Positions 28,327 through 62,084 of a stretch of DNA of 64,000 bases are shown one piece after another (positions within the stretch are counted from its first letter, which is position 1; the number at the start of each line of letters is the position of its first letter). The stretch comes from Candidatus Rokuibacteriota bacterium (lineage in GTDB: Bacteria; Methylomirabilota; Methylomirabilia; Rokubacteriales; CSP1-6), in contig JACQFL010000018.1 of assembly GCA_016200085.1 (NCBI GenBank), positions 112,006 to 176,005 of the forward strand, read 5' to 3'. The position numbers and the translations under genes were made by a program. Below the pieces are notes generated by a model, which searched no databases, was not told where the DNA came from, and saw only the letters and a list, made by a program, of their open reading frames with translations.

Positions 28327-29784
28327 CAGCGACACCTATGGAATACAGAGCAGTCAGGATCAAGGACGTGATCAGCGGGATTAACAGGGACTACTTCCTG
28401 CCTGCGATCCAACGTGAGTTCGTGTGGGAACCCGACCAGATTGAGAAACTGTTCGATTCCATTCTCGGCGACTATCCGATCGGTTCATTCCTGTTCTGGA
28501 AAGTTGACGAAAAGAACAAAGAAGAGTGGACGACTTTTGAGTTCATCAGACAGTTCGACAAAGCCGACCCGCATAACCCAGAGGCGAGCCTTAAGGGGAT
28601 CGCCCGGGACATTTTCCTCGTCCTCGATGGTCAACAAAGGATGTCGTCCCTCTTCATCGGGCTGAAGGGGTCATATCGATGGTTCCACTACCGATGGAGA
28701 ACCGAAAAACTGTACTTGAACCTGCTGAAGCGGCCTGTGCCGAACGAGGCCGATCCCGAGGAACTGATTTACCAGTTCAAGTTCAGGGAATCGTCCGAAG
28801 CCAAGAGAGATGATGAGGTCTGGTACGAGGTCGGCAAGATCCTCGACTTCGACGATCCGGAAGACGCGAAGGCTGACATCAAAGCGTTGATCGCCCCGCT
28901 GGCCGAGCCGGACAAAGAGAACGCCAACAGGCTGATCGGTCGTCTTCACAACAAGATCCATACCCTGCCGACGATCAACTACTACGAGGAGAGGTCTCAG
29001 GACTACGATAAGGTCCTGACGGTCTTCGTGCGGGCGAATTCTGCCGGCACTCCGCTTGGCTACTCAGACTTGTTGCTCTCCACCGCAACGGCGAAGTGGG
29101 AGAAATTGAACGCCCGCGAGGAGATCGTGAAGTTGATGGATGATCTCAACGATTTGGGCGGCGGAGACGAGTACAAGTTCGGCAAAGATTTCGTGCTGAA
29201 AGCCAGTCTCTACCTGACGCAGGACTTGCCCATTCAGTACAAGGTGAAGAACTTCACGAGGTCGAATCTCCGCAAAATCGAGGACAACTGGGAGAACATC
29301 AAGACCTATTTGGCCACGACCGTTCGACTGGTGGCGAAGTTCGGCTACCGCTGGGAGAACATCGTTGCGCCATTGGCGCTCCTCCCGATCTCGTTCTGGT
29401 TGATGAAAAAGGGGAACGACACCTTCGATAAGTCATCCAGACGAGACGACGTTGCAGCACAGACCGAGGTCAAGAAATGGCTGACGCTTGCCCTGTTGAA
29501 GAACGCATTCGGCGGTTCTTCCGACACCACCCTCAAGAACCTGCGTGATGTTCTGCTGAAGATCACCACCTACAAGGCATTCCCGCTTAGCGAGTTGAAC
29601 GACGCCCTGGAAATCGAGGCCAAGCTCTCCGACGCCGAAATCGAGGATCTGCTTGCGTACAAGTATCGCGGTAAATACACGTACCTGGTTTTGTCGCTAC
29701 TCTACCCAGACCGTGACTGCGTAAGCTTCCCCGTCCGGTAGACAGTTCAGAAGTAGACTTTCGCCGGGTGGAGAGGAGCAGTCC

Positions 29785-30051
29785 ATGCGAAAGTCACGGT
29801 TCACGGAGAGCCAGATCGTCGCCATCCTGAAGCAAGGGGAGGCGGGCGTCCCGATCGCGGAGATCCTGCGGCAGCACAACATCAGCAAGGCGACGTACTT
29901 CCATTGGCGGTCGAAGTACGCCGGGGCGACGGTCGACGAGTTGAAACGGCTGAAGGAACTCGAGGCCGAGAACACGAAGCTGAAGCGGATGTACGCCGAG
30001 CTCGCCCTGGAGAACACGGCGATCAAGGACGTCTTGAGCCGAAAGCGATGA
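29785..30051 (+). CDS. IS3-family transposase OrfA
   Basis: An 88-residue protein: helix-turn-helix (SRFTESQIVAILKQGEAGV, IAEILRQHNISKATYFHWRSKY), then a leucine-zipper-like helix (LKRLKELEAENTKLKRMYAEL). It ends in an ATGA overlap with OrfB. This is the DNA-binding subunit of the IS3 transposase. Confidence 0.92.
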   Translation: MRKSRFTESQIVAILKQGEAGVPIAEILRQHNISKATYFHWRSKYAGATVDELKRLKELEAENTKLKRMYAELALENTAIKDVLSRKR

Positions 30052-30905
30052 CGCCGTCCGCGAAACGAGAAGCCCTGGCGGTGCTGGTGCAGGACCACGG
30101 CGTGCCGGTGCGGCGCGCCTGCCAGGCGGTGCGGCTCTCGCGGGCGGCGTACTACCGGCCTCCGCGCTCCCGGCTGGTGCACGACACCGACGTCGTCACC
30201 GCGTTGAATGAGGTGGTTGGGCGACACAGCCGCTGGGGGTTCTGGAAGTGCTTCTATCGCCTGCGCCGCGCCGGGCATCGGTGGAATCACAAGCGCGTGC
30301 ACCGTGTGTACTGTGCCCTGCGGCTCAATCTGCCGCGGCGCACGCGACGACGCGTCCCCACGCGCCGCCGCCACCCGCTGGTGGCCCCGGCGCGCCTCAA
30401 CGAGACCTGGGCGCTCGATTTCATGGCGGACGCCCTGTACGACGGCCGCAGCTTTCGGACCTTCAATGTCCTCGACGAGGGCAATCGGGAGAGCCTCGCG
30501 ATCGACGTTGGGACGTCGATCCCGAGCGCGCGGGTCATTCGCGTCCTCGATGAGCTCATTCAGCTGCATGGCCGCCCCGCCCGGGTGCGCGTCGACAATG
30601 GGCCCGAGCTCACCGCCGAGACCTTCGTCGAGTGGTGCGCGGCGCAGCGCATCGCCATCGGCTACATCCAGCCCGGGAAGCCGGATCAGAACGCCTTCAT
30701 CGAGCGGTTCAATCGCACGTTTCGCGAAGAGGTCCTCGACGCCTATCTCTTTGACTCCCTCGAACAGGTGCAGGAGATCACCGACGCCTGGCTTGCGACC
30801 TACAACACGGAGCGGCCCCATGACAGCCTCGGCCAGGTGCCGCCGCTCGTGTTTCTGCCGAGGCCCAATGCCCCCGCGGAGTCTAGTTTTGAAGTGTCTA
30901 CTTGA
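30048..30905 (+). CDS. IS3-family transposase OrfB (DDE integrase)
   Basis: A 285-residue protein with an rve integrase core: WALDFMADAL (first Asp), RVDNGPELTAETF (second Asp), and PDQNAFIERFNRTFREEVL (Glu), completing the DDE triad. An HTH_21-like N-terminal region (VRRACQAVRLSRAAYYRPPR) precedes it. The start ATG overlaps the OrfA stop. The OrfAB fusion is probably made by programmed frameshifting, as in other IS3 elements. Confidence 0.93.
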   Translation: MTPSAKREALAVLVQDHGVPVRRACQAVRLSRAAYYRPPRSRLVHDTDVVTALNEVVGRHSRWGFWKCFYRLRRAGHRWNHKRVHRVYCALRLNLPRRTRRRVPTRRRHPLVAPARLNETWALDFMADALYDGRSFRTFNVLDEGNRESLAIDVGTSIPSARVIRVLDELIQLHGRPARVRVDNGPELTAETFVEWCAAQRIAIGYIQPGKPDQNAFIERFNRTFREEVLDAYLFDSLEQVQEITDAWLATYNTERPHDSLGQVPPLVFLPRPNAPAESSFEVST

Positions 30906-31441
30906 CGGGGAAGCTTACGACTGGAAGGACACGAGTTTCCACGAAGACCACATCTTCCCCGCATCCGAGTTCGGCGTTCGCGGACTGCGAAAGCTGGGGT
31001 ACGACAACCAAAAGATTCAACGCTATCTGTCGCGATTCAACACGGTTCTCAATTTGGAACTGCTGACGGATACGGAGAACCTGTCGAAGAATTCCACTCC
31101 GTTCAGCAAATGGATCGCCGGCAGGGACGATGGGTTCAAAAGGAGACACCTGATCCCTGAACTGGATTCCTACGATCTGAACGCCTTCGAGGACTTCGCC
31201 GAGGCAAGAAAGCAACTCTTGGTGAAGCGGTTCAAGGCGATTTGAGAGCGCCAGGGTTAATTGACCAGCCACCAACGATCAGGGTTCTCCGCGAGTGAGC
31301 AGCGGTCGTGGAGTCTCGTAGTGGAGAGAACTCGAGCTCGAGTCCTACGCGGCGTTTGTGCGCTCGTACGGGACCGAGGTTGCGTGTGACGCAAGCTTGC
31401 CCGCCTTGTGATGACGCCATCGACCGGACAACGCTCAGCGC

Positions 31442-42622: not shown

Positions 42623-42740
42623 CCGGACGCACGCCGCAAGGGCCCTCGGGCTCCAGCGCACGTACCTGCTCCGGCTGATCCGCGAGTTTAGTCTGAACGT
42701 CCCGCCACCTATGCGGGCCCATCGCAACGGCAACGGATAG
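42531..42740 (+). CDS. Fis-like helix-turn-helix protein
   Basis: A 69-residue protein (GTG start) with the Fis-family C-terminal HTH: FKRELLTRALLAHGGNRTHA then ARALGLQRTYLLRLIRE. It is just the DNA-binding part, similar in size to small Fis-type regulators. Its 3' end and downstream sequence (42651-42792) are duplicated exactly at 44210-44351, inside the DGR target cluster. Confidence 0.8.
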   Translation: MRRTPVNVYQQEVESFKRELLTRALLAHGGNRTHAARALGLQRTYLLRLIREFSLNVPPPMRAHRNGNG

Positions 42741-42792
42741 CCAATTCACGCGTTGCATTTCTGGGAGTGATCCTTAACGGGACACTCCCTTA
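42651..42792 (+). repeat. 142-bp direct repeat, copy 1 (end of Fis-like gene)
   Basis: These 142 bases, from CTCCAGCGCACG to CACTCCCTTA, are identical by eye to 44210-44351. They cover the last ~30 codons of the Fis-like gene and a downstream hairpin (GGGAGTG/CACTCCC, 42763-42789). Each copy lies upstream of a DGR target gene, suggesting block duplication of the target cassette. Confidence 0.92.
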
Positions 42793-43031: not shown

Positions 43032-43517
43032 ATGACGACCGGCGCCGCCGTCCTCACGAGCTTTCTTCTCGTGGCCGCGGTGGGGGACGCGAACCACGCG
43101 ACGTTCTCCCTGACTGTCGACTACCGCCAGTCTCTCAAAATGATGATCAAGGCAGGCAGGTACGACTACATAAACTCCGATATCACCTCGAGGCACTTCC
43201 CCGTGGCACCCGGCCCTGCTGAGGTCACGATCGAACTCGTACGCTTTGACCGCGTGATGTCTACGGACGCCGTGCTCGCCGAGCTCGAGAAGCGCGGCGT
43301 CCGCCCCGCGACGCTTCCCGAGCTCCTCGCCTTCGGCGCGAAGTACCCCGAGAAGCAGCGGGAGTTCTCGGTCGTCGCCCTCGCTTCTGTCTGGCGGCCC
43401 TGGCGTGACCTCCGCTCCTCGCCCTGCCTCTGGGGCGACGCGCGTGAGCGCTTCCTGGATCTCCGCTGGCTCGACTGGTGGGGCCTGCCCTACCGCTTCG
43501 CCGCCGTCCGCACGTAG
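43032..43517 (+). CDS. DGR target protein 1 (variable C-terminus)
   Basis: A 161-residue protein with an AAAGGAGG ribosome site. Its C-terminal half is homologous to the proteins at 43575 and 44638: VDYRQSLKMMIKAGRYDYIN, PATLPELLAFGAKYPEKQRE, then the variable region ending in RFAAVR. This fold class occurs as DGR-diversified ligand-binding proteins, with variable residues expected on a C-type-lectin-like surface. The N-terminal helical region present in its paralogues is largely missing (MTTGAAVLTSFLLVAAVGD directly joins the core). The variable repeat is one codon shorter than the template. Confidence 0.82.
   Translation: MTTGAAVLTSFLLVAAVGDANHATFSLTVDYRQSLKMMIKAGRYDYINSDITSRHFPVAPGPAEVTIELVRFDRVMSTDAVLAELEKRGVRPATLPELLAFGAKYPEKQREFSVVALASVWRPWRDLRSSPCLWGDARERFLDLRWLDWWGLPYRFAAVRT
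43383..43513 (+). repeat. DGR variable repeat VR1
   Basis: This aligns with the template repeat at 45600-45733 with one missing codon near the 3' end. Differences occur at many template adenines but also at a number of other bases. Some of the latter (for example template positions 45605, 45633, 45637, 45674, 45680 and 45713) are shared with VR2. The 136 bases that overlap and precede it (43263-43398) are identical to those of target 2. Confidence 0.82.
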
Positions 43518-43574
43518 CCTCTCTACCTTTTTCTCCATCACCCCCTCTTCGATTGCCAGAAAAGGAGGCGCACT

Positions 43575-44198
43575 ATGTCAAACGATCTGTCCGATCTGCC
43601 TCTCCTTGCGAAGGGGATGAGCATGGGTGCCGCGATCCTCACGAATCTCGTCGAGAAAGCCAAGGCGCGAGGCCTTACCGAGGAGAACGTCGCCCGACTC
43701 GCGACCGAGGACGGCGAGGGCCTCCTCGAAAAGGTCGCGGATCTCCTCGCGCTTGAGATGGGGAGCGCGATCAGGACGACCTTCTCCGTCGCGATCGACT
43801 ACACGCAGTCCCTCGCCGCGATGATCAAGGCCGGCCACTACAACTGGGTGAACTCGGACATCACGGAGCAGCACTTCCCGATCACGCCCGGTCCCAAGGA
43901 CGTCTCGTTCGAGCTCGTGCACTTCGACCGCCTCATGTACACGGACGCCGTGCTCGCCGAGCTCGAGAAGCGCGGCGTCCGCCCCGCGACGCTTCCCGAG
44001 CTCCTCGCCTTCGGCGCGAAGTACCCCGAGAAGCAGCGGGAGTTCTCGGTCGTCGCCCTCGCTTCTGTCTGGCGGCACTGGCAGAGTAGCCTCTGCGCAC
44101 CCTCCCTCTGGGGGCGCGCCGACGGCCGCCTCCTGCTCCTCGACTGGCTCGACCGCGGGTGGGGCGCGCGCTGCCGCTTCGCCGCCGTCCGCAAGTAA
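43575..44198 (+). CDS. DGR target protein 2 (variable C-terminus)
   Basis: A 207-residue paralogue with an AAAGGAGG site. The N-terminal helical region (AILTNLVEKAKARGLTEENV, EGLLEKVADLLALEMG) is followed by the core VDYxxSLxxMIKAGxYxWVNSDIT (here IDYTQSLAAMIKAGHYNWVN). The C-terminal variable region (from ASVWRHW to RFAAVRK) closes the protein. It is very close to target 1 upstream of the variable region and strongly different within it. Confidence 0.85.
   Translation: MSNDLSDLPLLAKGMSMGAAILTNLVEKAKARGLTEENVARLATEDGEGLLEKVADLLALEMGSAIRTTFSVAIDYTQSLAAMIKAGHYNWVNSDITEQHFPITPGPKDVSFELVHFDRLMYTDAVLAELEKRGVRPATLPELLAFGAKYPEKQREFSVVALASVWRHWQSSLCAPSLWGRADGRLLLLDWLDRGWGARCRFAAVRK
44061..44194 (+). 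repeat. DGR variable repeat VR2
   Basis: 134 bases aligned without gaps to the template repeat. By hand count, 22 of the 30 template adenines differ, and 12 of the 104 other positions differ. The adenine bias is clear, but the non-adenine changes indicate that it was made from an earlier template or has drifted. Confidence 0.85.
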
Positions 44199-44209
44199 AG
44201 CCGCTGGGC

Positions 44210-44351
44210 CTCCAGCGCACGTACCTGCTCCGGCTGATCCGCGAGTTTAGTCTGAACGTCCCGCCACCTATGCGGGCCCATCGCAACGGCAACGGATAGC
44301 CAATTCACGCGTTGCATTTCTGGGAGTGATCCTTAACGGGACACTCCCTTA
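44210..44351 (+). repeat. 142-bp direct repeat, copy 2
   Basis: An exact copy of 42651-42792. Here the Fis-like coding part has no start and is non-functional. It begins 12 bases after the stop of target 2 and precedes the promoter of target 3. Confidence 0.92.
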
Positions 44352-44637
44352 CACGTGGCAGGCCCTTTCCTTGGCGGCAAACTATCTCTAGCCTGCGCCG
44401 GATCTATTGACAAGTTATTGATTTTGCTGTAATATTCTGTCGGAACCTCACAATAACTTCATCTCCTCAGCCCCTGTCTTGATCGTTCCGTCTTTCGCCA
44501 GGACCACGGCGCGAATTCTGTTCGGCTCGCTCCCGTCAGCACCGCTTTCGTAGCGTCTGCGCTCTCGCCGACCACCAGTCGCTCCCAAAACCACGACGAC
44601 CACCAACGACCCGACCGCACACGAAAGGGGGACCACC
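44352..44637. other. AT-richer leader region of DGR target 3
   Basis: This 286-base stretch follows the 142-bp repeat. It contains the promoter at 44407-44435 in an AT-rich patch and then a ~190-base untranslated leader up to the GAAAGGGGGACC ribosome site of target 3. No gene is seen. Confidence 0.6.
44407..44435 (+). promoter_or_regulatory. Near-consensus sigma-70 promoter of DGR target 3
   Basis: TTGACA at 44407-44412, exactly 17 bases, then TAATAT at 44430-44435. The -35 is perfect and the -10 is five of six. It lies in an AT-rich island of an otherwise GC-rich region and points to the target whose variable repeat matches the present template. Confidence 0.75.
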
Positions 44638-45249
44638 ATGCCGACCGACGTGTCCGTGAAGAACATGAACAAGACCGTCGCCATCATCACCTGTCTCGTG
44701 GAGGAGAAGGCCAAGGCGCGCGGTCTCACCGACGAAGACCTCGATCGCCTCGCGACCAAGGATGGCGACTGCCTCCTCGAGAAGATCGCCGATCTCCTCG
44801 CCAGCGAGGCGCGAAGCGCGACCAGGACGGCCTTCCCCGTGACCGTCGACTACCACTGGTCGCTCGACGCCATGATCAAGGCCGGCCGCTACGGCTGGGT
44901 GAACTTGGACATCACTGCGGAGCACTTCCCCGTGAAGCCAGGCCCGGCCGAGGTCTCGATCGAGCTCGTGCACTTCGACCGCGTGATGTCGAGCGACGAC
45001 GTGCTCGCGGAGTTCGACCGCCGCGGCCTCCGACCCGCGACGCTTCCGGAGCTTCTCTCCTTCGGGGCGAAGTATCCCGAGAAGCAGCGCGAGTTCCCCA
45101 TCGTCGCCCTCGCTTCCGTCTGGCGGTTCTGGTACGGTTTCCGCGGCGTGCCCTTCCTCTGGGGCCTCGCCGGCGGGCGCGACCTCAGCCTGATCTGGCT
45201 CGACGACTGGTGGATCGCGCACTTTCGCTTCGCCGCCGTCCGCAAGTAG
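44638..45249 (+). CDS. DGR target protein 3 (cognate of the present template)
   Basis: A 203-residue paralogue of targets 1 and 2. It has an N-terminal helical part (ITCLVEEKAKARGLTDEDLD, CLLEKIADLLASEARS) and the core (VTVDYHWSLDAMIKAGRYGW, LVHFDRVMSSDDVLAEF, GLRPATLPELLSFGAKYPEK). The variable region runs from ASVWRFWYG to FRFAAVRK, with hydrophobic and aromatic residues where the template encodes asparagines. Proteins of this family are, as I recall, frequent in candidate-phyla (CPR) genomes. It probably displays a diversified binding face; no signal peptide is visible. Confidence 0.88.
   Translation: MPTDVSVKNMNKTVAIITCLVEEKAKARGLTDEDLDRLATKDGDCLLEKIADLLASEARSATRTAFPVTVDYHWSLDAMIKAGRYGWVNLDITAEHFPVKPGPAEVSIELVHFDRVMSSDDVLAEFDRRGLRPATLPELLSFGAKYPEKQREFPIVALASVWRFWYGFRGVPFLWGLAGGRDLSLIWLDDWWIAHFRFAAVRK
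45112..45245 (+). repeat. DGR variable repeat VR3
   Basis: 134 bases aligned without gaps to the template at 45600-45733 (offset 488). They differ at 20 sites, every one an adenine in the template; 0 of 104 non-adenine positions differ. This is the diagnostic adenine-specific pattern. The repeat ends one codon before the stop of target 3. Confidence 0.95.
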
Positions 45250-45599
45250 CCGAGCTAGGGATCTCGGTCCCTTTGCTCTTCTGCCCTTTCGACCCTTGGG
45301 CCCTTCGGCCCCCGACCCCTGCACGTCTTCGTGCAGGGGTTTTCATTTTGCTCCGAAAATCCTAGAGTGAATTTGGATAGTAGACCGATGAAAGTCCGCG
45401 GCCACGGTTGCGGACGGTCGAATTCCGGACTCTCGAGCAGGGGATGGTGTAGGGCACGCTTTACGCCAGAGTTGCTCGCGAAGCCCATCTACAAAGTGAA
45501 GATACTTGGTGCGAGATACTCGCGGATTACAGATCCCGAATACGATGCAGCCCGGAGAGTATTCAACGGGCAGTGATGTGGATGGTATCTCGCACGTCA
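45250..45599. other. Spacer between VR3 and the template repeat
   Basis: A 350-base region holding the hairpin at 45316-45339 and otherwise no convincing gene. A weak 81-codon frame (45331-45576) has no ribosome site and was not accepted. The promoter of the template RNA should lie here; I could not identify it. Confidence 0.55.
45316..45339 (+). terminator. Hairpin downstream of VR3: terminator or DGR homing hairpin
   Basis: CCCCTGCACG and CGTGCAGGGG form a perfect 10-bp stem with a four-base TCTT loop, followed by TTTTCATTTT. It works as an intrinsic terminator for target 3. Hairpins of similar size and loop length just 3' of the variable repeat stimulate retrohoming in known DGRs, so it may have a second role. 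Confidence 0.7.
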
Positions 45600-45733
45600 G
45601 CTTCCGTCTGGCAGAACTGGAACGGTAACCGCGACGTGCCCTACCTCTGGAGCAACGCCGACGAGCGCAACCTCAACCTGAACTGGCTCGACAACAGGTG
45701 GAACGCGCACTATCGCTTCGCCGCCGTCCGCAA
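45600..45733 (+). repeat. DGR template repeat (TR)
   Basis: 134 bases with 30 adenines, many in AAC codons when read in the target frame (QNWNGNRDVPYLWSN, NLNLNWLDN). This is the typical composition of a DGR template, where A-to-N changes at AAC codons give diverse residues without stops. It is non-coding in function and lies on the same strand as the targets. It ends 23 bases before the 3' end of the antisense avd gene. Confidence 0.95.
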
Positions 45734-45756
45734 ACCTCTTCACTTCGTTTTTTATT

Positions 45757-46176
45757 TCAGGCCGTAAACCCGTCGCCACGAGTCTGCTTGAGCCAGCCGC
45801 CGGTCATTCTGCCGATCTCCTGCAAGCGCTCGGCGAACGCGGCGTACTTCTTGTCATCGAGGGCTCTCACCTCCCACGCGATCTGCACGAATACTTTGAG
45901 GAGGTCGAGCTTCGCCGAGGCGCGTTCAAGATAGGGTGCCTTCCGCTCCCGTGACACATAGGCCGCGACGAACATCAGCTCAATCGTTTCGAGGAGGGCT
46001 GCGTCGATCTTCGCGCCCAGCGTATAGCGAGAGGTCTTCGCCATGTGCGGCAGGAAGCTCTGCCACAGTTCGTAGGTTTTCGTCACGTGCTCAAGGATCG
46101 GCGTCGCGCGGGCGCGCGGGGTGGCCCCGGCCAATGTCACATAGATATGCGGACGAGATTGGATCATGTTTTTCAT
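45757..46176 (-). CDS. avd: Avd-like four-helix-bundle protein of the DGR
   Basis: A 139-residue all-helical protein of the bAvd/four-helix-bundle family: PILEHVTKTYELWQSFLPHM, then the hallmark SRYTLGAKIDAALLETIEL, and a C-terminal helix (FAERLQEIGRMTGGWLKQ). Avd forms a pentamer that binds the reverse transcriptase and template RNA. It is encoded antisense between the template and the reverse transcriptase, and its start overlaps the reverse-transcriptase start head-to-head by ~30 bases. An alternative start is ATG 46167. Confidence 0.85.
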   Translation of the reverse strand: MKNMIQSRPHIYVTLAGATPRARATPILEHVTKTYELWQSFLPHMAKTSRYTLGAKIDAALLETIELMFVAAYVSRERKAPYLERASAKLDLLKVFVQIAWEVRALDDKKYAAFAERLQEIGRMTGGWLKQTRGDGFTA

Positions 46177-47136
46177 GAAGTAATAAGCGTTGAGAATCTC
46201 CTCGCGGCGTGGAGGGAGTTTCGGCGTGGCAAGCGGGCGAGGCGGGATGTGCAGGAGTTCGGCCTGCGCCTCACGGACAACGTCTTCGACCTGCACGACG
46301 ACCTCGCTCATCATACGTACCGCCACGGCCCCTATCAAGCCTTCAGGGTCTCGGATCCGAAGGCGCGAGACATTCACAAGGCGACCGTGCGGGACCGGCT
46401 GCTGCACCGGGCGCTCTACCGCGCCCTTTACCCGTTCTTCGACAGAAACTTCATCGCTGATTCCTACTCATGCAGGCAAGGCAAGGGCAGCCACGCCGCG
46501 CTCCACCGCTTTCGTCGGTTTTCATACGCGGTCAGCAGGAATGGCACACGCACCTGCTGGGTGCTGAAGGGCGACATCCGGAAATGCTTCGCGAGCATCG
46601 ATCACGGACTGCTCCTGAATATCCTGCGGGGCTACATCCGCGACGGGCAACTCCTTAATCTTCTCGGAGAGGTGGTGGGCAGTTTTGCCTCGGGGACAGA
46701 GAGCGTCGGCTTGCCCCTGGGGAACATCACGTCCCAGCTCCTCGCGAACATCTACCTCAACGAGCTGGATCGCTTCGCGAAGCACGCGCTCCGCGCCAAG
46801 TGCTATGTCCGCTACGGCGACGATTTCGTCCTCCTCTCCGACGATCGCGGATGGCTCGAAGCGCAGCTCCCCCGGATCGGGGAGTTCCTCGAGCGACAAC
46901 TTCGCCTGGCCCTCCATCCCGGGAAGGTCTCAATTCGCGCGCTCGCCTCCGGCGTGGACTTTCTGGGGTGGGTTCATTTCATGGATCACCGCGTCCTGCG
47001 AACGGCGACGAAGCGGCGGATGCTGAAACGCTTGAGACGGGGTGCGACGAATGCCTCGATCACGTCTTATCTCGGGCTCTTGAGCCACGGCAACGGGTAC
47101 AAGCTGGGAGAGGAGGTGCGAAGGTGCGAAGTATAG
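46147..47136 (+). CDS. DGR reverse transcriptase
   Basis: A 329-residue reverse transcriptase of group II-intron-like descent and DGR type. Key motifs are the first catalytic aspartate in VLKGDIRKCFASID (D143), the DGR-type motif GLPLGNITSQ (188-197, S-Q where other retroelements have S-P), and the active site YVRYGDDFVLL (Y-G-D-D, 223-226). The thumb-like tail (VDFLGWVHFMDHRVLRTATK) is present, with no maturase or endonuclease domain. ATG 46147 was chosen; no strong ribosome site is visible. Confidence 0.93.
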   Translation: MRTRLDHVFHEVISVENLLAAWREFRRGKRARRDVQEFGLRLTDNVFDLHDDLAHHTYRHGPYQAFRVSDPKARDIHKATVRDRLLHRALYRALYPFFDRNFIADSYSCRQGKGSHAALHRFRRFSYAVSRNGTRTCWVLKGDIRKCFASIDHGLLLNILRGYIRDGQLLNLLGEVVGSFASGTESVGLPLGNITSQLLANIYLNELDRFAKHALRAKCYVRYGDDFVLLSDDRGWLEAQLPRIGEFLERQLRLALHPGKVSIRALASGVDFLGWVHFMDHRVLRTATKRRMLKRLRRGATNASITSYLGLLSHGNGYKLGEEVRRCEV

Positions 47137-52662: not shown

Positions 52663-53502
52663 ATGGGACTGCTACGGCAGTCGCGCGCGATCCGCCGCCA
52701 GAGGCCGCGGCCGGTACGAGTCCAGGACCGCGATCGCTGGCTTCTCGAGGCGCTCGGGAAGATGCGATTCCTGATCACGGCGCAACTCGCACAGCTCTTC
52801 TTCGGAGGTTCACGGTGGGCGACCAACAAGCGCCTCCGGAAGCTTCTCGACCGCGGCCTTGTCCGGGTGTGGGTCCGGGATCTTGCCCGGGAGAATGTCT
52901 ACAGCCTCGACCGATCCGGCCTCCGACTCCTTACGGCGGGCAGCGAGGACGCCGCCTGGTCGTTGCCGCGAGGCCTCGACGGAAACCTCGACCATCTTCT
53001 CGCGATCAACGATGTGCGGATCTCCCTCGCCCTCGGCCTTGACGGTGAGGGCGGGGAGCTCCGCTCGTGGCGCTCGGACTGGGAACTCCGGGCGCACGTC
53101 CGGGCCAAGGTGGTTCCGGACGCTTTGTTCATCGTCCAGTGGGATGACGCCGAGCAGGCCTTCGCGCTCGAGGTCGACAACGCGACGCGTTCGCCACGGA
53201 GGTTCCTCGCAAAGATCCTCCGGTACAAGACCCTGTCCGTGCGGCGCGTTCCGCTCCACGGCGTGACCGACTTCCTCACGCTCGTCGTCGGCCGCGATGA
53301 CCGGTGGATCGAGCGGTATAGGGACGCCGCGAGCCACACCCGTCTGGGCTTTCGGATCTTGTTTGCGGCGCTCCCCGACGTCGGCCGCGAGGGCGCCTGC
53401 AAGTCGATTTGGAAGTCGGCCGACGGGGAGAACCGCTATTCACTCCACGACCTCGCTCGCTCCTTCGGCACGAGGAGCGGCGTTCTTGAGCAAGGGGATT
53501 GA
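52663..53502 (+). CDS. Replication-relaxation family protein
   Basis: A 279-residue protein. It has a winged-helix N-terminus (RDRWLLEALGKMRFLITAQL, ATNKRLRKLLDRGLVRVWV, YSLDRSGLRLL) and a C-terminal nuclease-like core (VVPDALFIVQ, FALEVDNATRSPRRFLAKIL). Such proteins are common on plasmids and integrative elements and are annotated replication-relaxation/mobilisation family; the biochemical role is unclear. A C-terminal fragment of a paralogue lies at 54622. Confidence 0.75.
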   Translation: MGLLRQSRAIRRQRPRPVRVQDRDRWLLEALGKMRFLITAQLAQLFFGGSRWATNKRLRKLLDRGLVRVWVRDLARENVYSLDRSGLRLLTAGSEDAAWSLPRGLDGNLDHLLAINDVRISLALGLDGEGGELRSWRSDWELRAHVRAKVVPDALFIVQWDDAEQAFALEVDNATRSPRRFLAKILRYKTLSVRRVPLHGVTDFLTLVVGRDDRWIERYRDAASHTRLGFRILFAALPDVGREGACKSIWKSADGENRYSLHDLARSFGTRSGVLEQGD

Positions 53503-54621: not shown

Positions 54622-54786
54622 TTCTGTGTGATCTCGGCGCTCCCTCTCGTCGGTCGGGAGGGAGCGCTCGGCCTCATTTGGCAGGCGGCCGACGGGGAGA
54701 ATCGCTATTCCTTACGGGACCTCGCGTCCCTTCCTTACAGCAAGGAAGGGACGGCAGCAGAAACGAAAGGAATCATCGAATGTTAG
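54622..54786 (+). pseudogene. C-terminal fragment of a replication-relaxation paralogue
   Basis: The stretch VGREGALGLIWQAADGENRY, SLRDLAS matches the end of the intact protein at 52663 (VGREGACKSIWKSADGENRY, SLHDLAR). No upstream part is present. It sits between two methyltransferase genes, as if a replication-relaxation/methyltransferase unit had been duplicated in tandem and then mostly deleted. The frame opens at ATG 54547, but the gene is not intact. Confidence 0.7.
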
Positions 54787-54942: not shown

Positions 54943-55788
54943 ATGACCACGAGGCCGACTCTGTCGAGCCGGGGCAAAGGGAACGCACAGATTGGAGATT
55001 GGGTCGGGAAAGTCTGGCGCGGAGACGCACGCGAGCTCCTCAGGGAGTTACCGGTCGAGTCCGTCGATCTGGTCATCACCGACCCGCCCTATTTCATCTC
55101 GAGAAACACCGTCATCCACCGCGCGATGAGGCCGATGAAATACCGTGCGGCGCGATCCATCACTCTTGATTTCGGCACATGGGACCACTTCGTGAGCGAA
55201 GCGGACTACTGGCGCTTCACGAGGGACTGGCTCACGGCGGTAGCTCGCGTGATAAGGCCCGGAGGGCATCTGGTGACTTTCTTCGACCAGAACCGTGTCT
55301 CGTACCTGATTGCGCTTGCGAAGCGCGAGGGCCTCGCGTGCCGGCAGCACCTCTACTGGGTGAAGTCCAATCCCGCGCCGCGGGCGCGCAAGGTCGATTT
55401 CATGATTGCGCTCGAGCATGCCATCTGGTTCACGAAGGAGCCGCGCTCTGGCGCAACCTTCAACTATCAGCTCGGACAGCAGAAGAACTACGTTCTCGCG
55501 GCCGTGCCGCACCATCCGCGGCTGCATCCTACCCAGAAGCCGGAGGCGGTGCTCCGGGTCTGGATCGCGTATCTGAGCGGTGAGGGCGATGTCGTCCTTG
55601 ATCCCTTTGCCGGCTCAGGGAGCACACTCTGCGCGGCCCGCGACCTCTCAAGGCAGTGGGTTGCGTGTGAGCGCGAGGCCGAGTACGTCGCGGTCGCGCG
55701 GACACGCCTGGCCCAGAGGCCATGCGCAAAGCCCACGGATCGCGCATTGCGTTCGACACCATCGACACACGGGAGGAACAGCCGGTGA
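54943..55788 (+). CDS. Beta-class DNA adenine-type methyltransferase
   Basis: A 281-residue protein with GDARELLRELPVESVDLVIT, motif IV DPPYF (47-51), the partner segments FFDQNRVSYLIALAKREG and HPTQKPEAVLRVWI, and motif I DVVLDPFAGSGSTLCAARDL. The D-P-P-Y motif favours N6-adenine methylation. No cognate restriction enzyme is adjacent, so it looks like an orphan methyltransferase that may protect the element or help it evade restriction. It overlaps the integrase start by four bases. Confidence 0.88.
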   Translation: MTTRPTLSSRGKGNAQIGDWVGKVWRGDARELLRELPVESVDLVITDPPYFISRNTVIHRAMRPMKYRAARSITLDFGTWDHFVSEADYWRFTRDWLTAVARVIRPGGHLVTFFDQNRVSYLIALAKREGLACRQHLYWVKSNPAPRARKVDFMIALEHAIWFTKEPRSGATFNYQLGQQKNYVLAAVPHHPRLHPTQKPEAVLRVWIAYLSGEGDVVLDPFAGSGSTLCAARDLSRQWVACEREAEYVAVARTRLAQRPCAKPTDRALRSTPSTHGRNSR

Positions 55789-57923
55789 GAACCGACACTC
55801 GCAGTCGCGTCGATACCTCGAAACTCGCGGTCGTCTACCTCCGGCAGAGCACCCCGGGCCAGCTCCGGGACAACGTGGTTGCCACCGAGGAGCAGTACCG
55901 CCTCAGGGAGATCCCGGCGTCCTTTGGGTTCCCGGAGGAGCGGATCCTCGTGGTCGACGAGGACCTCGGCGTGAGCGGCCAGACGATCGCCGGCCGGAAG
56001 GGGATGCTCCGGGTCTTGGAGCTCCTTGAGCAGGGGTCGGTCTCCTGCGTGGTCGTCCGGGACATCGGCCGCCTCACGAGAGACGAGTTCAACGCGGACA
56101 TCGGGCTCATCGCCCGGCAGTGCTACCAGTCGGGAGCCCTGATCGTGACCCCCGACAAGGTCTACGACCCGGCCGATCCCTCGGACCAGCTCATGCTCGG
56201 CCTCCAGGGGCTCCTCGCCGGCTGGGACCGGGCGAACATCGTCCGCCGCATGGAGCACCACCGCCGGGCGAAGCAGGCTCGGGGCGTGAACATCAACGGC
56301 GCCGTACCGCCAGGCTACGAGAAGATCGCGGGCGTTCCCAAGAATTCGCCGGAGCACGGGAAGCTCCGGATTACTTCCGACAAAGAGGTCAGTGATCGGA
56401 TCGCGCTGATCCTCCGGAAGGGGCTTGAGTTGGGCGGCATCCTCGCCGTGGTCCGGTTCCTGCGCGCCCACGACCTCAAGGTTCCCCAGATCCGGGGCGA
56501 AGAAGATCGCGTCGTGACCGGTGCCGACAAGGTGACCCGCATCGTGGGCACGGGCCGGCGGATCGTCCACTGGGCCGAGGCCAACAGGGACCGGGTGACG
56601 AGAATTCTCAAAAACCCCACCTACTCCGGCGCGATCGTGAACGGCCGGCGCGCGCGGGTGCTCGACAAGGCGAGCGGGAAGAAGAGGTGGGTCACGCGCC
56701 GCGCCTACGAGCACTGCCTCGTGATGCGCGACGCCCATCCCGCTTACATCACGTGGGAGGAGCACCTCGATCTCCTCCGCATGATCGCGCGGAACAACCA
56801 CGCGAAGACTTACGGGCAGGGCCAAGCGCTCCTCTCGGGGCTCGGCCTCCTCCGCTGCGGCGTCTGCGGCGCCCCCATGGTGGTCCAGTACAACAACCCG
56901 GAGCGCCGCTCGCGGGGCCGGGTCTACCAGAACACGCCCTACGTCTACATGTGTACTCGCCGGACGCCGGAAGGAGGCCAGGCTGCCTGCCAGAGCCCCG
57001 CGGGACCCTACCTCGACCGGGCCGCTATGGATCTCGTCCTCTTCGCCCTGGGCGAACTGGACCTCGAAGGCCTCGAGGCGGCGCTTGCCGACCGAAAGCG
57101 GAGCGCAGAGGAGACGCAGCGCTTCAAGCGGGAACAGGTCGAGGCCCTGACGCGCCGCGCAAAGATCCTCGAAGACGCGATCGCCGACGCGGAGAAGCCG
57201 GAGGCCAGGGCCCGTCTCGTCGCCCGCTTTGAAGAGACCCTCACGGCTCTCGAAGCGGCCCAGGCGGCCCCTGGGAAGCCTGAGGAGCCGGATGCTCCGC
57301 CCCTTCTCTCGGAGGCCGTCCTGCGGCGCCTGGAAGTCTTTCGCGACCCCGAATCAGCATGGGAGCGGTTCTCACAGCGGACCCGGAAGGAGGTCCTCCG
57401 GGCCCTGGCCAAAGGCGTCACAATCTACCCCGATCTCGACGGCTACGTCCTGGTCTTCGACTGGCATTCCGGTGAGCGGGCGGCGGCGAAGGTGAGGACG
57501 GTTCGCCGGAAGAAGGTCTACACGGTGCCTGAGGAGGTACAGGCCCTCTTCGCCGGCGAGTTGGACGGCGTGATGGGCAGCATGGCGGCTCGGCCATCAA
57601 CGACACCCGATGCTACGGAGCGCGAGGCCGGAGCCGTTGTGCTCCGTAGGGTGGCAACTCGTCGAGGAAGAGCACGCCGCGATGGGCCAGTGTCGCCTCG
57701 CCGGGCCGCGGCACGCTGCCCCCGCCGACGAGCCCCGGCACGGAGATGGTGTGGTGCGGCGCCCGGAAGGGGCGGGTGGTCACGAGCCCCGCGCGCGGAG
57801 TCAGGAGCCCCGCCACGCTCCAGATCGTCGAGACCTCGAGCGATTCCTCTTCGCCGAGCGGAGGCAGGATGGCGGGCAGGCACCGCGCGAGCATGGTCTT
57901 GCCGCCGCCGGGGGGGCCGATGA
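55785..57923 (+). CDS. Large serine recombinase, probable integrase of the island
   Basis: The product runs from GTG 55785 (GGAGG upstream). It has a catalytic domain (LAVVYLRQSTPGQLRDNVVA, Ser22; VVVRDIGRLTRDEFNAD), a recombinase domain (PPGYEKIAGV, NPTYSGAIVNGRRAR), a zinc ribbon (LLRCGVCGAPMVV, YMCTRRTPEGGQAAC), a coiled coil and a C-terminal domain. The element/chromosome junction at about 57.65 kb lies inside this frame. The last ~85-90 residues are therefore read from antisense comM DNA and are not part of the original protein. The natural end in the free element would be elsewhere. Confidence 0.88.
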   Translation: MRTDTRSRVDTSKLAVVYLRQSTPGQLRDNVVATEEQYRLREIPASFGFPEERILVVDEDLGVSGQTIAGRKGMLRVLELLEQGSVSCVVVRDIGRLTRDEFNADIGLIARQCYQSGALIVTPDKVYDPADPSDQLMLGLQGLLAGWDRANIVRRMEHHRRAKQARGVNINGAVPPGYEKIAGVPKNSPEHGKLRITSDKEVSDRIALILRKGLELGGILAVVRFLRAHDLKVPQIRGEEDRVVTGADKVTRIVGTGRRIVHWAEANRDRVTRILKNPTYSGAIVNGRRARVLDKASGKKRWVTRRAYEHCLVMRDAHPAYITWEEHLDLLRMIARNNHAKTYGQGQALLSGLGLLRCGVCGAPMVVQYNNPERRSRGRVYQNTPYVYMCTRRTPEGGQAACQSPAGPYLDRAAMDLVLFALGELDLEGLEAALADRKRSAEETQRFKREQVEALTRRAKILEDAIADAEKPEARARLVARFEETLTALEAAQAAPGKPEEPDAPPLLSEAVLRRLEVFRDPESAWERFSQRTRKEVLRALAKGVTIYPDLDGYVLVFDWHSGERAAAKVRTVRRKKVYTVPEEVQALFAGELDGVMGSMAARPSTTPDATEREAGAVVLRRVATRRGRARRDGPVSPRRAAARCPRRRAPARRWCGAAPGRGGWSRAPRAESGAPPRSRSSRPRAIPLRRAEAGWRAGTARAWSCRRRGGR

Positions 57924-58575
57924 GCAGCACGTTGTGCGCGCCCGCCGCGGCGATCTCCAGGGCGCGCTTGGCGTGCTGCTGGCCCCGCACGTCGCTGAAG
58001 TCGAGCTCGTCGGCGGGCGGGGCGGCCTCCGCGGTGGGCTCGTCGTCGGGCGCGGGATCCGGCGCGGTGCCGTTCAGGAGGCTCACCGCGTCCCGCAAGG
58101 TCGGCGCCGCCAGCACGCGCACGCCGGTGACCGCCGCCACCTCGGCGCGGTTGCCGACGGGCACCAGCAGCCGGGGCACCCCGCACCGCCGGCACGTGAG
58201 GCCGACGGCGAGCGCGCCGCGCACCGGCTGGATCTGGCCGTCGAGGGCCAGCTCGCCCACCACCACGTAGGGCTCGCCCGCGGCGGCGGCGAGGGCGCCG
58301 GTGGCGGCGAGGATGCCGAGCGCGATGGGCAGGTCGAACGCCGCGCCCTCCTTGCGGATGTCGGCGGGCGCGAGGTTGACGGTGATGCGGTCCGGCGGGA
58401 ACGCGAAGCCCGCGTTGCGGATCGCCGTGCGCACGCGCTCGCGGCTCTCGCGCACCGCGGAGTCGGGAAGCCCGACGGTGGTGAAGGCGGGCAGGCCGCT
58501 CGTGACGTCCACCTCGACGCGGACCAGGACCGCCTCGATGCCGATGAGCGCGGCGGACAGGATGCGGGCCAGCAC
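57613..58575 (-). pseudogene. comM: comM/yifB (Mg-chelatase-like ATPase), truncated by the island
   Basis: The N-terminal ~306 residues of a YifB/ComM-type protein (normally ~500). The start is GTG 58575 (VLARILSAALIGIEAVLVRV), then the Lon-protease-like S5 domain (VTSGLPAFTTVGLPDSAVRE) and the ATPase Walker A (LLIGPPGGGKTMLARCLP). The frame is broken within Walker B (GVLFLDELP) by the integrated element, and a short foreign tail follows to the stop at 57613. ComM is a branch-migration helicase in natural transformation, so the insertion should impair that process. Confidence 0.9.
57640..57670. other. Probable attR: element/comM junction
   Basis: On the minus strand, comM reads G-V-L-F-L-D-E-L-P and then departs from the family (expected P-E-F, here P-P-Y-G-A-Q) at about 57650-57660. 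GC content rises sharply to the right. The exact crossover dinucleotide cannot be fixed without the left junction, which lies outside the window. Confidence 0.7.
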
Positions 58576-58639
58576 GCCGCGATTCTTCGGGCCGGCCGCG
58601 GAGCCGTCAATGCGCTCCTTGTGATACAGTCCTGGCGCC

Positions 58640-60073
<1,434 letters not shown>

Positions 60074-60446: not shown

Positions 60447-62084
60447 ATGAGGGGACGACGGTCCGCGGCGACGAGAGGGAGGCGCAGCCTCTCTCTCGTC
60501 GTGCCGCTCCTTGGCGTCCTCCTCCTCGCCCCCGCCGCGCCCGGCGGCGCGCAGCCGCGGGCGGAGGGGATCGCTCGCGCCAGCGACCAGACGTACCGGC
60601 GCCCGCTCGGCAACGATCCCGCCGCGATCGATCCCGCCCGCGTCAGCGACATCTACGGTCTCTCCGTCTCCGAGCAGATCTTCGACGGCCTCGTGCAGTT
60701 CGACCAGACGCTGACGGTCATGCCGAGCCTCGCCCAGTTCTGGAAGGCCTCGCGCGACGGCCTCACGTGGACGTTCATGCTACGGAAGAACGTGAAGTTC
60801 CACCACGGCCGCGAGCTGACCTCGGACGACGTCGTGTTCTCGCTCACCCGCCTGCTCGACCCGCGCACGGCGTCGGGCGGCGCCGACTTCTTCGTCAACA
60901 TCAAGGGCGCGCGCGAGTTCCGCGAGGGGCGGGCGAAGTCAGTGGCCGGCATCGCCGCGCTCGACCGGTACACCGTCGAGATCGCCCTCGTGGAGTCGTT
61001 CGCCCCGTTCGTCTCGCTCCTCGCCCTCGGCCACGCCAAGATCGTGCCGCGCGATATCGTCGAGGCGCGGGGCGACGCTTTCGGCGCCCAGCCCGTCGGG
61101 AGCGGCCCCTTCCGCTTCGTGCAATGGGACCATGGCAAGGAGATCGTGCTCGCCGGCAACCCCGACTACTTCGACGGGCCGCCCGCGCTGAGCCGCCTCG
61201 TCTACCGGATCTTCTCCGGCGACTCGACGGCGGCGATGTTCAAGCAGTTCGAGCAGGGCGCGCTCGAGGATGCCCCGGTGCCCACGGGGCAGCGCCTGGG
61301 CAGCGGCGATCCGCGCTTCCAGTACATCCGCCGGACGACGTATTCCGCCCGCTTCTACGGCTTCAACACGCGCGTGAAGCCGCTCGACGACCGCCGCGTC
61401 CGCCAGGCGATCGTGCACGCGGTGGACCGCGACACGATCCTGCACGAGGTCTTCCTCGACCGCTTCCACCCGGCGCGCGGCATCATCCCGCCGGGCACCC
61501 CGGGCTTCGACCCCTCGCTCCAGGGCTTCGCCTACGATCCCGCGCGCGCGCGCGACCTGCTGCGGCAGGCGGGCTACTCCGCCGCGCGGCCGCTGCCGGT
61601 GATCCCCGCCTGGTCGACGGCCAGGAGCGAGACGGTCGTGCGCGAGCACGAGATGATGAAGCGCGCCCTGGCCGCGGTCGGGGTCAGCCTGGACGTGCGC
61701 TACCAGCAGGACTGGCCGAGCTTCCTGCGCCTGCTCGGCGAGGGGCGGGCCCCCATGTTCCTCTACGCGTGGCACGCCGACGCGCCCGATCCCGACAACT
61801 TCCTCTTCAAGCTGTTCCACTCCCGGGGGCCGCGCAATTTCTTCGGCTACGCGAACCCCGCCTTCGACGACCTCATCAGGCGCGCGCGGTCGGAGCCCGA
61901 TCCCACGCGCCGCGTCGAGCTGTACCGCCGGGCGGAGCGCATGGTCCTCGACGACGCGGTGATCCTGCCCGTCTGGCACTACGTCTACGAGCACGTGTTC
62001 CAGCCCTACGTGCGCAGCGTGCAGGTCAACGGCCTCGGCGACCCCTACATCCCCATGCGCAAGATCTGGCTGGATCGCCGGTGA
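60447..62084 (+). CDS. Family-5 ABC transporter substrate-binding protein
   Basis: A 545-residue periplasmic protein with a signal peptide (LSLVVPLLGVLLLAPAAPGG). It shows the SBP_bac_5 pattern: RVSDIYGLSVSEQIFDGLVQ, WTFMLRKNVKFHHGRELTSD, DVVFSLTRLLDP, GSGPFRFVQWDHG, and a late DPDNFLFKLFHSRGPRNFFG. The family binds peptides, nickel or other small solutes. No permease genes follow directly; instead a sensor kinase does, so it may feed a signalling pathway as well as uptake. Confidence 0.9.
   Translation: MRGRRSAATRGRRSLSLVVPLLGVLLLAPAAPGGAQPRAEGIARASDQTYRRPLGNDPAAIDPARVSDIYGLSVSEQIFDGLVQFDQTLTVMPSLAQFWKASRDGLTWTFMLRKNVKFHHGRELTSDDVVFSLTRLLDPRTASGGADFFVNIKGAREFREGRAKSVAGIAALDRYTVEIALVESFAPFVSLLALGHAKIVPRDIVEARGDAFGAQPVGSGPFRFVQWDHGKEIVLAGNPDYFDGPPALSRLVYRIFSGDSTAAMFKQFEQGALEDAPVPTGQRLGSGDPRFQYIRRTTYSARFYGFNTRVKPLDDRRVRQAIVHAVDRDTILHEVFLDRFHPARGIIPPGTPGFDPSLQGFAYDPARARDLLRQAGYSAARPLPVIPAWSTARSETVVREHEMMKRALAAVGVSLDVRYQQDWPSFLRLLGEGRAPMFLYAWHADAPDPDNFLFKLFHSRGPRNFFGYANPAFDDLIRRARSEPDPTRRVELYRRAERMVLDDAVILPVWHYVYEHVFQPYVRSVQVNGLGDPYIPMRKIWLDRR

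Follow-up and report, generated by a model that had tools for sequence, protein, structure and literature searches.

We report a complete diversity-generating retroelement (DGR) at positions 43032-47136 of a 64,000-nucleotide stretch, hereafter the window, of contig JACQFL010000018.1 (positions 112,006 to 176,005) from a bacterium of the Candidatus Rokuibacteriota (assembly GCA_016200085.1). The cassette consists of target genes, a template repeat (TR), an avd gene and a reverse transcriptase (RT) gene. In all likelihood, this DGR belongs to a lineage otherwise found in Patescibacteria, is carried as cargo by an island of about 78 kb in a bacterium with a large genome, and writes to the variable repeat (VR) of its third target gene, VR3. 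A periodic array of short units was also detected downstream of VR3 and of many other VRs.

Components of the Cassette

Repeat, open reading frame (ORF) and family searches located all parts of the DGR that an earlier, sequence-only reading of this DNA had described as complete:

43032..43517, + strand: target gene 1 (T1), 161 amino acids, diverged paralogue, with VR1 at 43383-43513
43575..44198, + strand: target gene 2 (T2), 207 amino acids, diverged paralogue, with VR2 at 44061-44194
44638..45249, + strand: target gene 3 (T3), 203 amino acids, probable live target (VR3 signature; structure model)
45112..45245, + strand: VR3, variable repeat of T3 (repeat search, comparison with TR)
45271..45310, + strand: array in which CTT occurs 5 times at a spacing of 7-9 nt, the first unit 25 nt past VR3
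45315..45340, + strand: terminator-like hairpin, 11-bp stem and 4-nt loop, followed by a T run
45600..45733, + strand: TR, with the 134 bp attributed to it in the earlier reading
45757..46176, - strand: avd, antisense to the interval between TR and RT, start codon inferred
46147..47136, + strand: DGR RT (families, structure relatives, tree)

The Avd protein, already named in the sequence-only reading without its minus strand, matched Pfam bAvd above the cut-off (E 1.2e-13) and the PHROG family 'Avd protein of DGR' (E 3e-19); against NCBIfam DivGenRetAVD it scored 74.4 bits, below the cut-off of 80. The stop of avd lies 24 nt from the end of TR and, if the gene starts at 46176 as predicted, its 5' end would overlap that of the RT gene. 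The assignment of the RT to the DGR type was upheld by its families, by its position in the RT tree and by its best solved relative, chain 8ub7 (E 3e-37, listed as 'Reverse transcriptase'), which we take to be the BPP-1 DGR enzyme. The earlier reading, correct as to the DGR itself, was silent on the antisense avd, the periodic array, the kinship with Patescibacteria, the comM-like insertion site and a further DGR elsewhere in the genome.

Lineage of the Reverse Transcriptase

In an RT tree of 58 rows, the window RT was placed inside a clade of 43 rows (support 100/99), the other 42 being Patescibacteria records or metagenome-assembled genomes (MAGs) without a phylum name. It fell within an inner clade of 19 rows (100/97), where its exact sister was not resolved by this tree. 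From outside the DGRs, a single group II intron RT, sitting on a long branch, served as outgroup, and 6 loci with short RT frames were dropped from an 88-row tree. An approximately unbiased (AU) test rejected the grouping of the window RT with 10 DGR RTs outside the clade (p-AU 6e-41), among them the RT of the second DGR of the host and others from phages, plasmids and further bacteria. The sequence-only reading had proposed such a tree as a test of its assignment; the RT fell among DGR RTs and the assignment stands. Also, 52 of the RT neighbours in the tree have their own A-biased TR/VR pair alongside.

The loci closest to the window RT (best 80 in a genome scan) showed identities of 35-63%, with a Wildermuthbacteria RT at 62%. 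Those that carry a lineage name presumably belong to Patescibacteria groups, except two Woesearchaeota near the bottom. The 40 of these 80 loci that were examined came from 39 genomes, all of 0.4-1.3 Mb. Viral contigs gave best matches of 34-43% identity (best 80 of 227), and phages and plasmids 31-39% for the best among the records listed. Among 388 relatives, the next best RT match had an E value of 3e-56, with identities of 35-43%.

Among the best 80 loci, avd was antisense to the RT in 68 of the 70 with an avd in reach; the two others (L092 and L096) lie outside the RT clade, as does L094, in which avd is antisense but beyond the RT. In all 52 clade loci with a TR/VR pair, VR preceded TR and the two lay on the strand of the RT; these 52 are the best 80 less 23 without a usable pair and less 5 outside the clade. 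The window matches this layout of target, TR, antisense avd and RT, which is defined here from the present, unpublished observation; the antisense avd layout may already be in print. One of these loci, L126 in genome G226 (MAG C24_metabat.bin.189, 0.8 Mb, presumed Patescibacteria), has a TR that shares 100 of 135 nt with that of the window, an identical arrangement including a cis target, and homologous targets whose N-terminal part is like that of the window targets.

A Periodic Array Downstream of the Variable Repeats

The 3' flanks of the VRs contain units such as CTTTGAAC in series. We scored CTT chains, defined as 4 or more CTT with gaps of 6-11 within 90 nt. At the window, the longest series had 5 CTT after T3 (P 0.0025, dinucleotide shuffles), 1 after T1, 0 after T2 and 1 after TR. 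Chains were found 3' of VR in 22 of the 52 clade loci, against an expectation of 1.4 by dinucleotide shuffling (at most 5 in 40 shuffles), and in 12 of 27 after thinning of the RTs below 60% identity; 5' of TR there were none in 52. Gaps of 7 and 8 were seen 44 and 40 times (about 7 expected for each). The CTT unit was chosen after a stricter one, CT[TC]NG, had been found 4 or more times in 8 of 52 clade loci (0.2 expected) and in 0 of 71 loci outside the clade; CTT was then compared with all 64 trinucleotides and ranked first (22 vs 1.1 expected), followed by TTG (9 vs 0.6). Outside the clade, CTT chains were present at 3 of 75 loci (0.5 expected); split by origin, they were found at 0 of 60 viral loci and at 4 in a listing of 16 cellular ones (L013, L016, L094, L120).

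A motif-free test, which scores identical trinucleotides at a given lag, gave z values of 11.6 and 14.8 at lags 7 and 8 for the clade VRs, 7.7 and 7.1 for 16 other cellular DGRs, and 16.3 and 12.6 for 46 distinct viral flanks, compared with 1.9 and 2.3 for sequences 3' of the clade TRs. Taken singly, P<0.05 was reached in the clade by 25 of 52 VRs vs 3 of 52 TRs, and in the thinned viral set by 24 of 36 VRs vs 1 of 36 TRs. At the window, P was 0.005 for T3, 0.50 for T1 and 0.34 for T2. In the viral loci, which were thinned from 60 to 36 by k-mers with some kinship left, the unit was CTG: chains of 3 or more (gaps 6-9) occurred 3' of VR in 23 of 36 loci (0.3 expected) and at TR in none of the 36, with gaps of 7 and 8 counted 40 and 27 times. 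Since the unit is CTT in the clade and CTG in viruses, the motif must be regarded as fitted per group; the period is not fitted, as each of the three groups has a conspicuous signal at lags 7 and 8.

Phage DGRs present a GC-rich hairpin with a GRNA loop 4-34 bp 3' of VR (PMC3240598). No hairpin of this phage type was found at VR3, where the 11-bp stem carries a TCTT loop and lies 69 nt downstream. Hairpins with a stem of 7 or more were found 3' of VR in 19 of 52 clade loci (1.7 expected); as they were also found 3' of TR in 18 of 52, we rejected them as a hallmark of the clade. The 115 nt after VR3, terminator included, gave an RNA fold z of -6.1. Structured RNA in the 157 nt 3' of TR was not supported (z +0.84, on the single sequence). 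Short hairpins were counted in 31 arrays from 54 flanks, window and G226 included: 18 were seen vs 5.7 expected, with a maximum of 15 in 500 shuffles. By eye, and uncounted, the array of many viral flanks lay between VR and a hairpin whose loop was, for example, GATA. At that place, the BPP-1 hairpin acts in target recognition (PMC3240598); its stem-loop is important without being absolutely necessary, and it may keep the target open (PMC12875486).

From its position, the array of CTT or CTG with a period of 7-8 nt may mark the recipient site. We tentatively propose that it is a general, undescribed cis-element of DGR retrohoming, which would help to mark the VR and would spare the TR, where it is absent. 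Targets without it, such as T1 and T2, would drop out, and BPP-1, with its hairpin only, would be an exception; the array may have been missed for that reason. It may serve as a landing strip for Avd, which is a pentamer, or keep the strand open beside the hairpin, and next to a hairpin of the BPP-1 type it could act in the same step of opening the target. DGRs are targeted hypermutation machines, and how they distinguish recipient from template is only partly understood, largely from one phage that lacks the array. If the array predicts live targets, target genes could be recognised by computation, and the idea could be put directly to the test at the bench.

Several observations weigh against this proposal. 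No CTT chain of 4 or more was found at 30 of the 52 clade loci, and the strict CT[TC]NG unit occurs only 2 times after T3, with 1 after each of T1 and T2. For the six targets of G226, cis target included, CTT chains were of 4, 3, 4, 4, 2 and 1, none with P<0.05 singly. The DNA fold of the first 60 nt past VR3 (z -1.95) does not differ clearly from the one past VR2 (-1.63; VR1, -1.27). Finally, no array was detected in BPP-1 (8 kb of NC_005357, P 0.27), and since BPP-1 retrohomes without it, the array is not strictly needed. The test was also negative for ANMV-1 (P 0.29), and in VHML the detector found no TR/VR pair.

It is possible, if somewhat doubtful, that the array is a feature of transcription termination or of the 3' untranslated region, and not a retrohoming element. 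The T3 array does lie between the stop codon and the terminator-like hairpin, and BPP-1 functions without one. However, chains follow only 4 of 306 other long ORFs of the same loci (1.1 expected), they are absent 3' of TR (0 of 52 clade loci), and many of the viral arrays stand beside a hairpin of the target-recognition kind described above.

The Probable Target of the Template Repeat

The sequence-only reading had counted three targets. The three paralogues are indeed there; a clean adenine signature is found only in T3. Compared with TR, VR3 is changed at 20 of 30 adenines and at 0 of 104 other bases (Fisher p 9e-17), VR2 at 22 of 30 adenines and 12 of 104 other positions, and VR1, which has lost one codon, at 22 of 28 and 16 of 103. 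Differences confined to the adenines of TR are thus seen in VR3 and not cleanly in VR1 or VR2. T3 is probably the sole live-looking target, as predicted from these differences, and the TR in its present form probably no longer reaches T1 or T2.

We consider it unlikely that all three paralogues are live targets of the single TR. Adenines do dominate the differences in every VR, and the frameworks of T1 and T2 are under purifying selection (dN/dS among targets 0.35-0.44 in the framework; 1.2 for VR2/VR3, on few sites). G226 likewise combines one TR with several paralogues. Against this stand the non-adenine differences, 16 in VR1 and 12 in VR2 with none in VR3, the codon deletion of VR1, and the absence of the 3' array from both T1 and T2.

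In G226, the cis target differs from the single TR at 21 of 38 adenines and 2 of 97 other positions, and five paralogues elsewhere show 10 to 44 differences at the 97 non-adenine positions (gaps not counted). These variously diverged paralogues are dispersed over several contigs (loci of this genome, that of the DGR included: L126, L098, L105, L108, L110, L111, L113), whereas the three targets of the window stand in a row.

T1 and T2 share an identical run of 136 bp just 5' of VR, ending 16 nt inside it. As the T1 gene 5' of this run shows only 50-75% identity per 20-nt window, this pattern suggests gene conversion. The T1-T2 block is flanked by two copies of a repeat:

42638..42792, + strand: 155-bp repeat copy 1, 3' end of a small gene, presumably helix-turn-helix (HTH)-like
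44197..44351, + strand: 155-bp repeat copy 2, 97% identical, directly after T2

The Target Protein Family

No Pfam, NCBIfam or PHROG family matched T1, T2 or T3 at E<=0.05, nor any Pfam family T3 at E<=1, in agreement with the absence of an assigned function noted earlier. T3 consists of a helical N-terminal part and a domain. Its model reached a predicted local distance difference test (pLDDT) score of 86, with 90 or more in the C-terminal domain, using a 24-row alignment that included rows of the Candidate Phyla Radiation (CPR) target kind, and 55 using 6 rows. According to this model, the C-terminal domain may be C-type-lectin-like. C-type lectin domains made up 19 of the 50 PDB matches listed, with a best probability of 0.44 and none significant; Foldseek gave no match at E<=0.001 in PDB or BFVD. 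Homology of the T1-T3 family to an 18-row CPR target alignment was not demonstrated by hhalign (probability 0.2).

No relative of the targets was found in the viral contigs searched. Homologues of the target domain without a DGR RT were present in 9 of the 94 other genomes of the host phylum (phylum homologues include L159-L167), and one without a DGR also lies on contig C4 of the host (G000:C4:4543-4932, L009). In 10 homologues without a DGR, the part equivalent to VR is 76% identical and the framework 65%; the three DGR targets show the reverse pattern, with 54% in the VR part and 75% in the framework. The clustering of targets left out 11 loci. Together, the DGR targets and these homologues offer a natural comparison for finding the ligand of the domain.

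The Host Genome and Its Island

The host genome (G000; 3.57 Mb, 94.6% complete, 57 contigs) does not belong to Patescibacteria. Five genomes were searched for a pmoA-type gene: G000 had none, and all four others, which are of its class and were picked within a single family, had one; one of these four is a 2.8-Mb single contig. This points to the phylum Methylomirabilota for the host, and to Rokubacteriales for its own family.

The DGR lies on an island of about 78 kb that splits a gene of contig C39, which we take from its sequence to be comM/YifB-like, into parts at 91257-91895 and 169636-170616 of the contig. Two features mark the right end of the island in the window:

55722..57923, + strand: large serine recombinase
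57631..58611, - strand: right part of the split comM/YifB-like gene (left part outside the window)

The split gene is in one piece in 7 of 10 relatives, and the neighbour at 58640-60073 stands beside the gene at 60501-62084 in all 10, which were selected for holding the latter. Genes left of the left gene part are also syntenic with relatives, so that host synteny is found on both sides of the island. The island ends share an 8-bp match, GTCGAGGA, among other 8-bp matches there; our guess is that it represents the integration core. In 4-kb steps, guanine-cytosine (GC) content was 0.59-0.68 inside the island and 0.67-0.74 outside.

As announced in the sequence-only reading, which placed the DGR on a recombinase-bearing island with SPARTA and Dnd genes, this single island carries DndD-like, TIR-APAZ and short pAgo genes and serine recombinases, and also GmrSD. 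Of the genes expected in an integrative and conjugative element (integrase, relaxase, coupling protein, type IV secretion), the serine recombinases, TrwB/TraG-like ATPases and a Replic_Relax protein were those found, no search being aimed at the remaining transfer genes. Among 148 genomes, the coupling ATPase of the island matched one, the host itself. The DndD-like frame at 52-1380 matches its profile only from about position 240, the N-terminal part being out of frame or outside the window. The GmrSD-like gene at 28338-31245 is apparently followed or interrupted by an insertion presumed to be of the IS3 type (frames 29785-30905), with a possible downstream piece from near 30889. A 50-nt direct repeat, 84% identical (53407-53456 and 54676-54725), surrounds a methylase gene.

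A second DGR is present in the host genome (G000:C44, L158 of 3492 bases, and L168). Like that of the window, it has an RT, an avd and a TR with differences at adenines only, over 70 nt scored. Unlike it, avd is on the same strand, the RT is of another lineage, and the target is presumably caspase/FGE-like. Its VR is followed by a TTCTG array (P 0.001).

One observation speaks against a Patescibacteria origin of the window DGR: the GC content of the cassette, 0.59-0.67, is far above the 0.33-0.55 of eight relative loci measured, so that either the transfer took place some time ago or it came from a GC-rich donor. It is very unlikely that the contig is a chimera, created in binning or assembly, that contains a piece of Patescibacteria: MAGs do carry such errors, and this one is in 57 contigs, yet one contig holds syntenic host genes on both sides of the island and the two parts of one gene at its ends, and the cassette lacks the lower GC content of those eight loci. 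Hardly credible is a DGR native to the host phylum and vertically inherited, which would fit the GC-rich codon use shared with the island and the target-domain homologues in the phylum, since only 1 of 95 phylum genomes, this one, gave an RT match at E<=1e-25 (none of the other 94), the window RT is nested among Patescibacteria RTs, and the DGR is located on an island.

Comparison with Known Systems

By analogy with BPP-1, RT and Avd would copy the TR RNA, errors at template adenines would yield a variable cDNA, and this cDNA would replace VR3, the C-terminal part of a putative binding protein. Since the interval that follows TR carries avd on its other strand, a TR transcript running into the RT gene would be complementary to the avd mRNA, which may allow antisense control. 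The BPP-1 DGR (PMC12875486, PMC3240598) has in common with that of the window TR, VR, Avd, RT and adenine mutagenesis. In BPP-1, however, avd precedes TR and has the same orientation as TR and brt, whereas in the window it follows TR and is antisense. Also, the VR of BPP-1 is immediately followed by a hairpin, with no periodic array, while in the window the array comes first, ahead of the hairpin.

The portions of the literature accessible to our search (including PMC8144416, PMC6642488, PMC10907252, PMC12875486, PMC3240598, PMC6199706 and PMC4372165) contained no description of the array, and no account of a DGR in Rokubacteria or of this host case. The closest known group is DGR clade 2 of Roux et al. 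2021 (PMC8144416), a label given here by resemblance. With this clade, described there as restricted to Patescibacteria, the window DGR shares the Patescibacteria RT lineage, A-specific TR/VR differences and targets without recognised domains. It differs from it by its presence in a 3.57-Mb genome of another phylum and on a mobile island. The host case would show that a DGR of the Patescibacteria type can reside in a different phylum, borne by a mobile vehicle.

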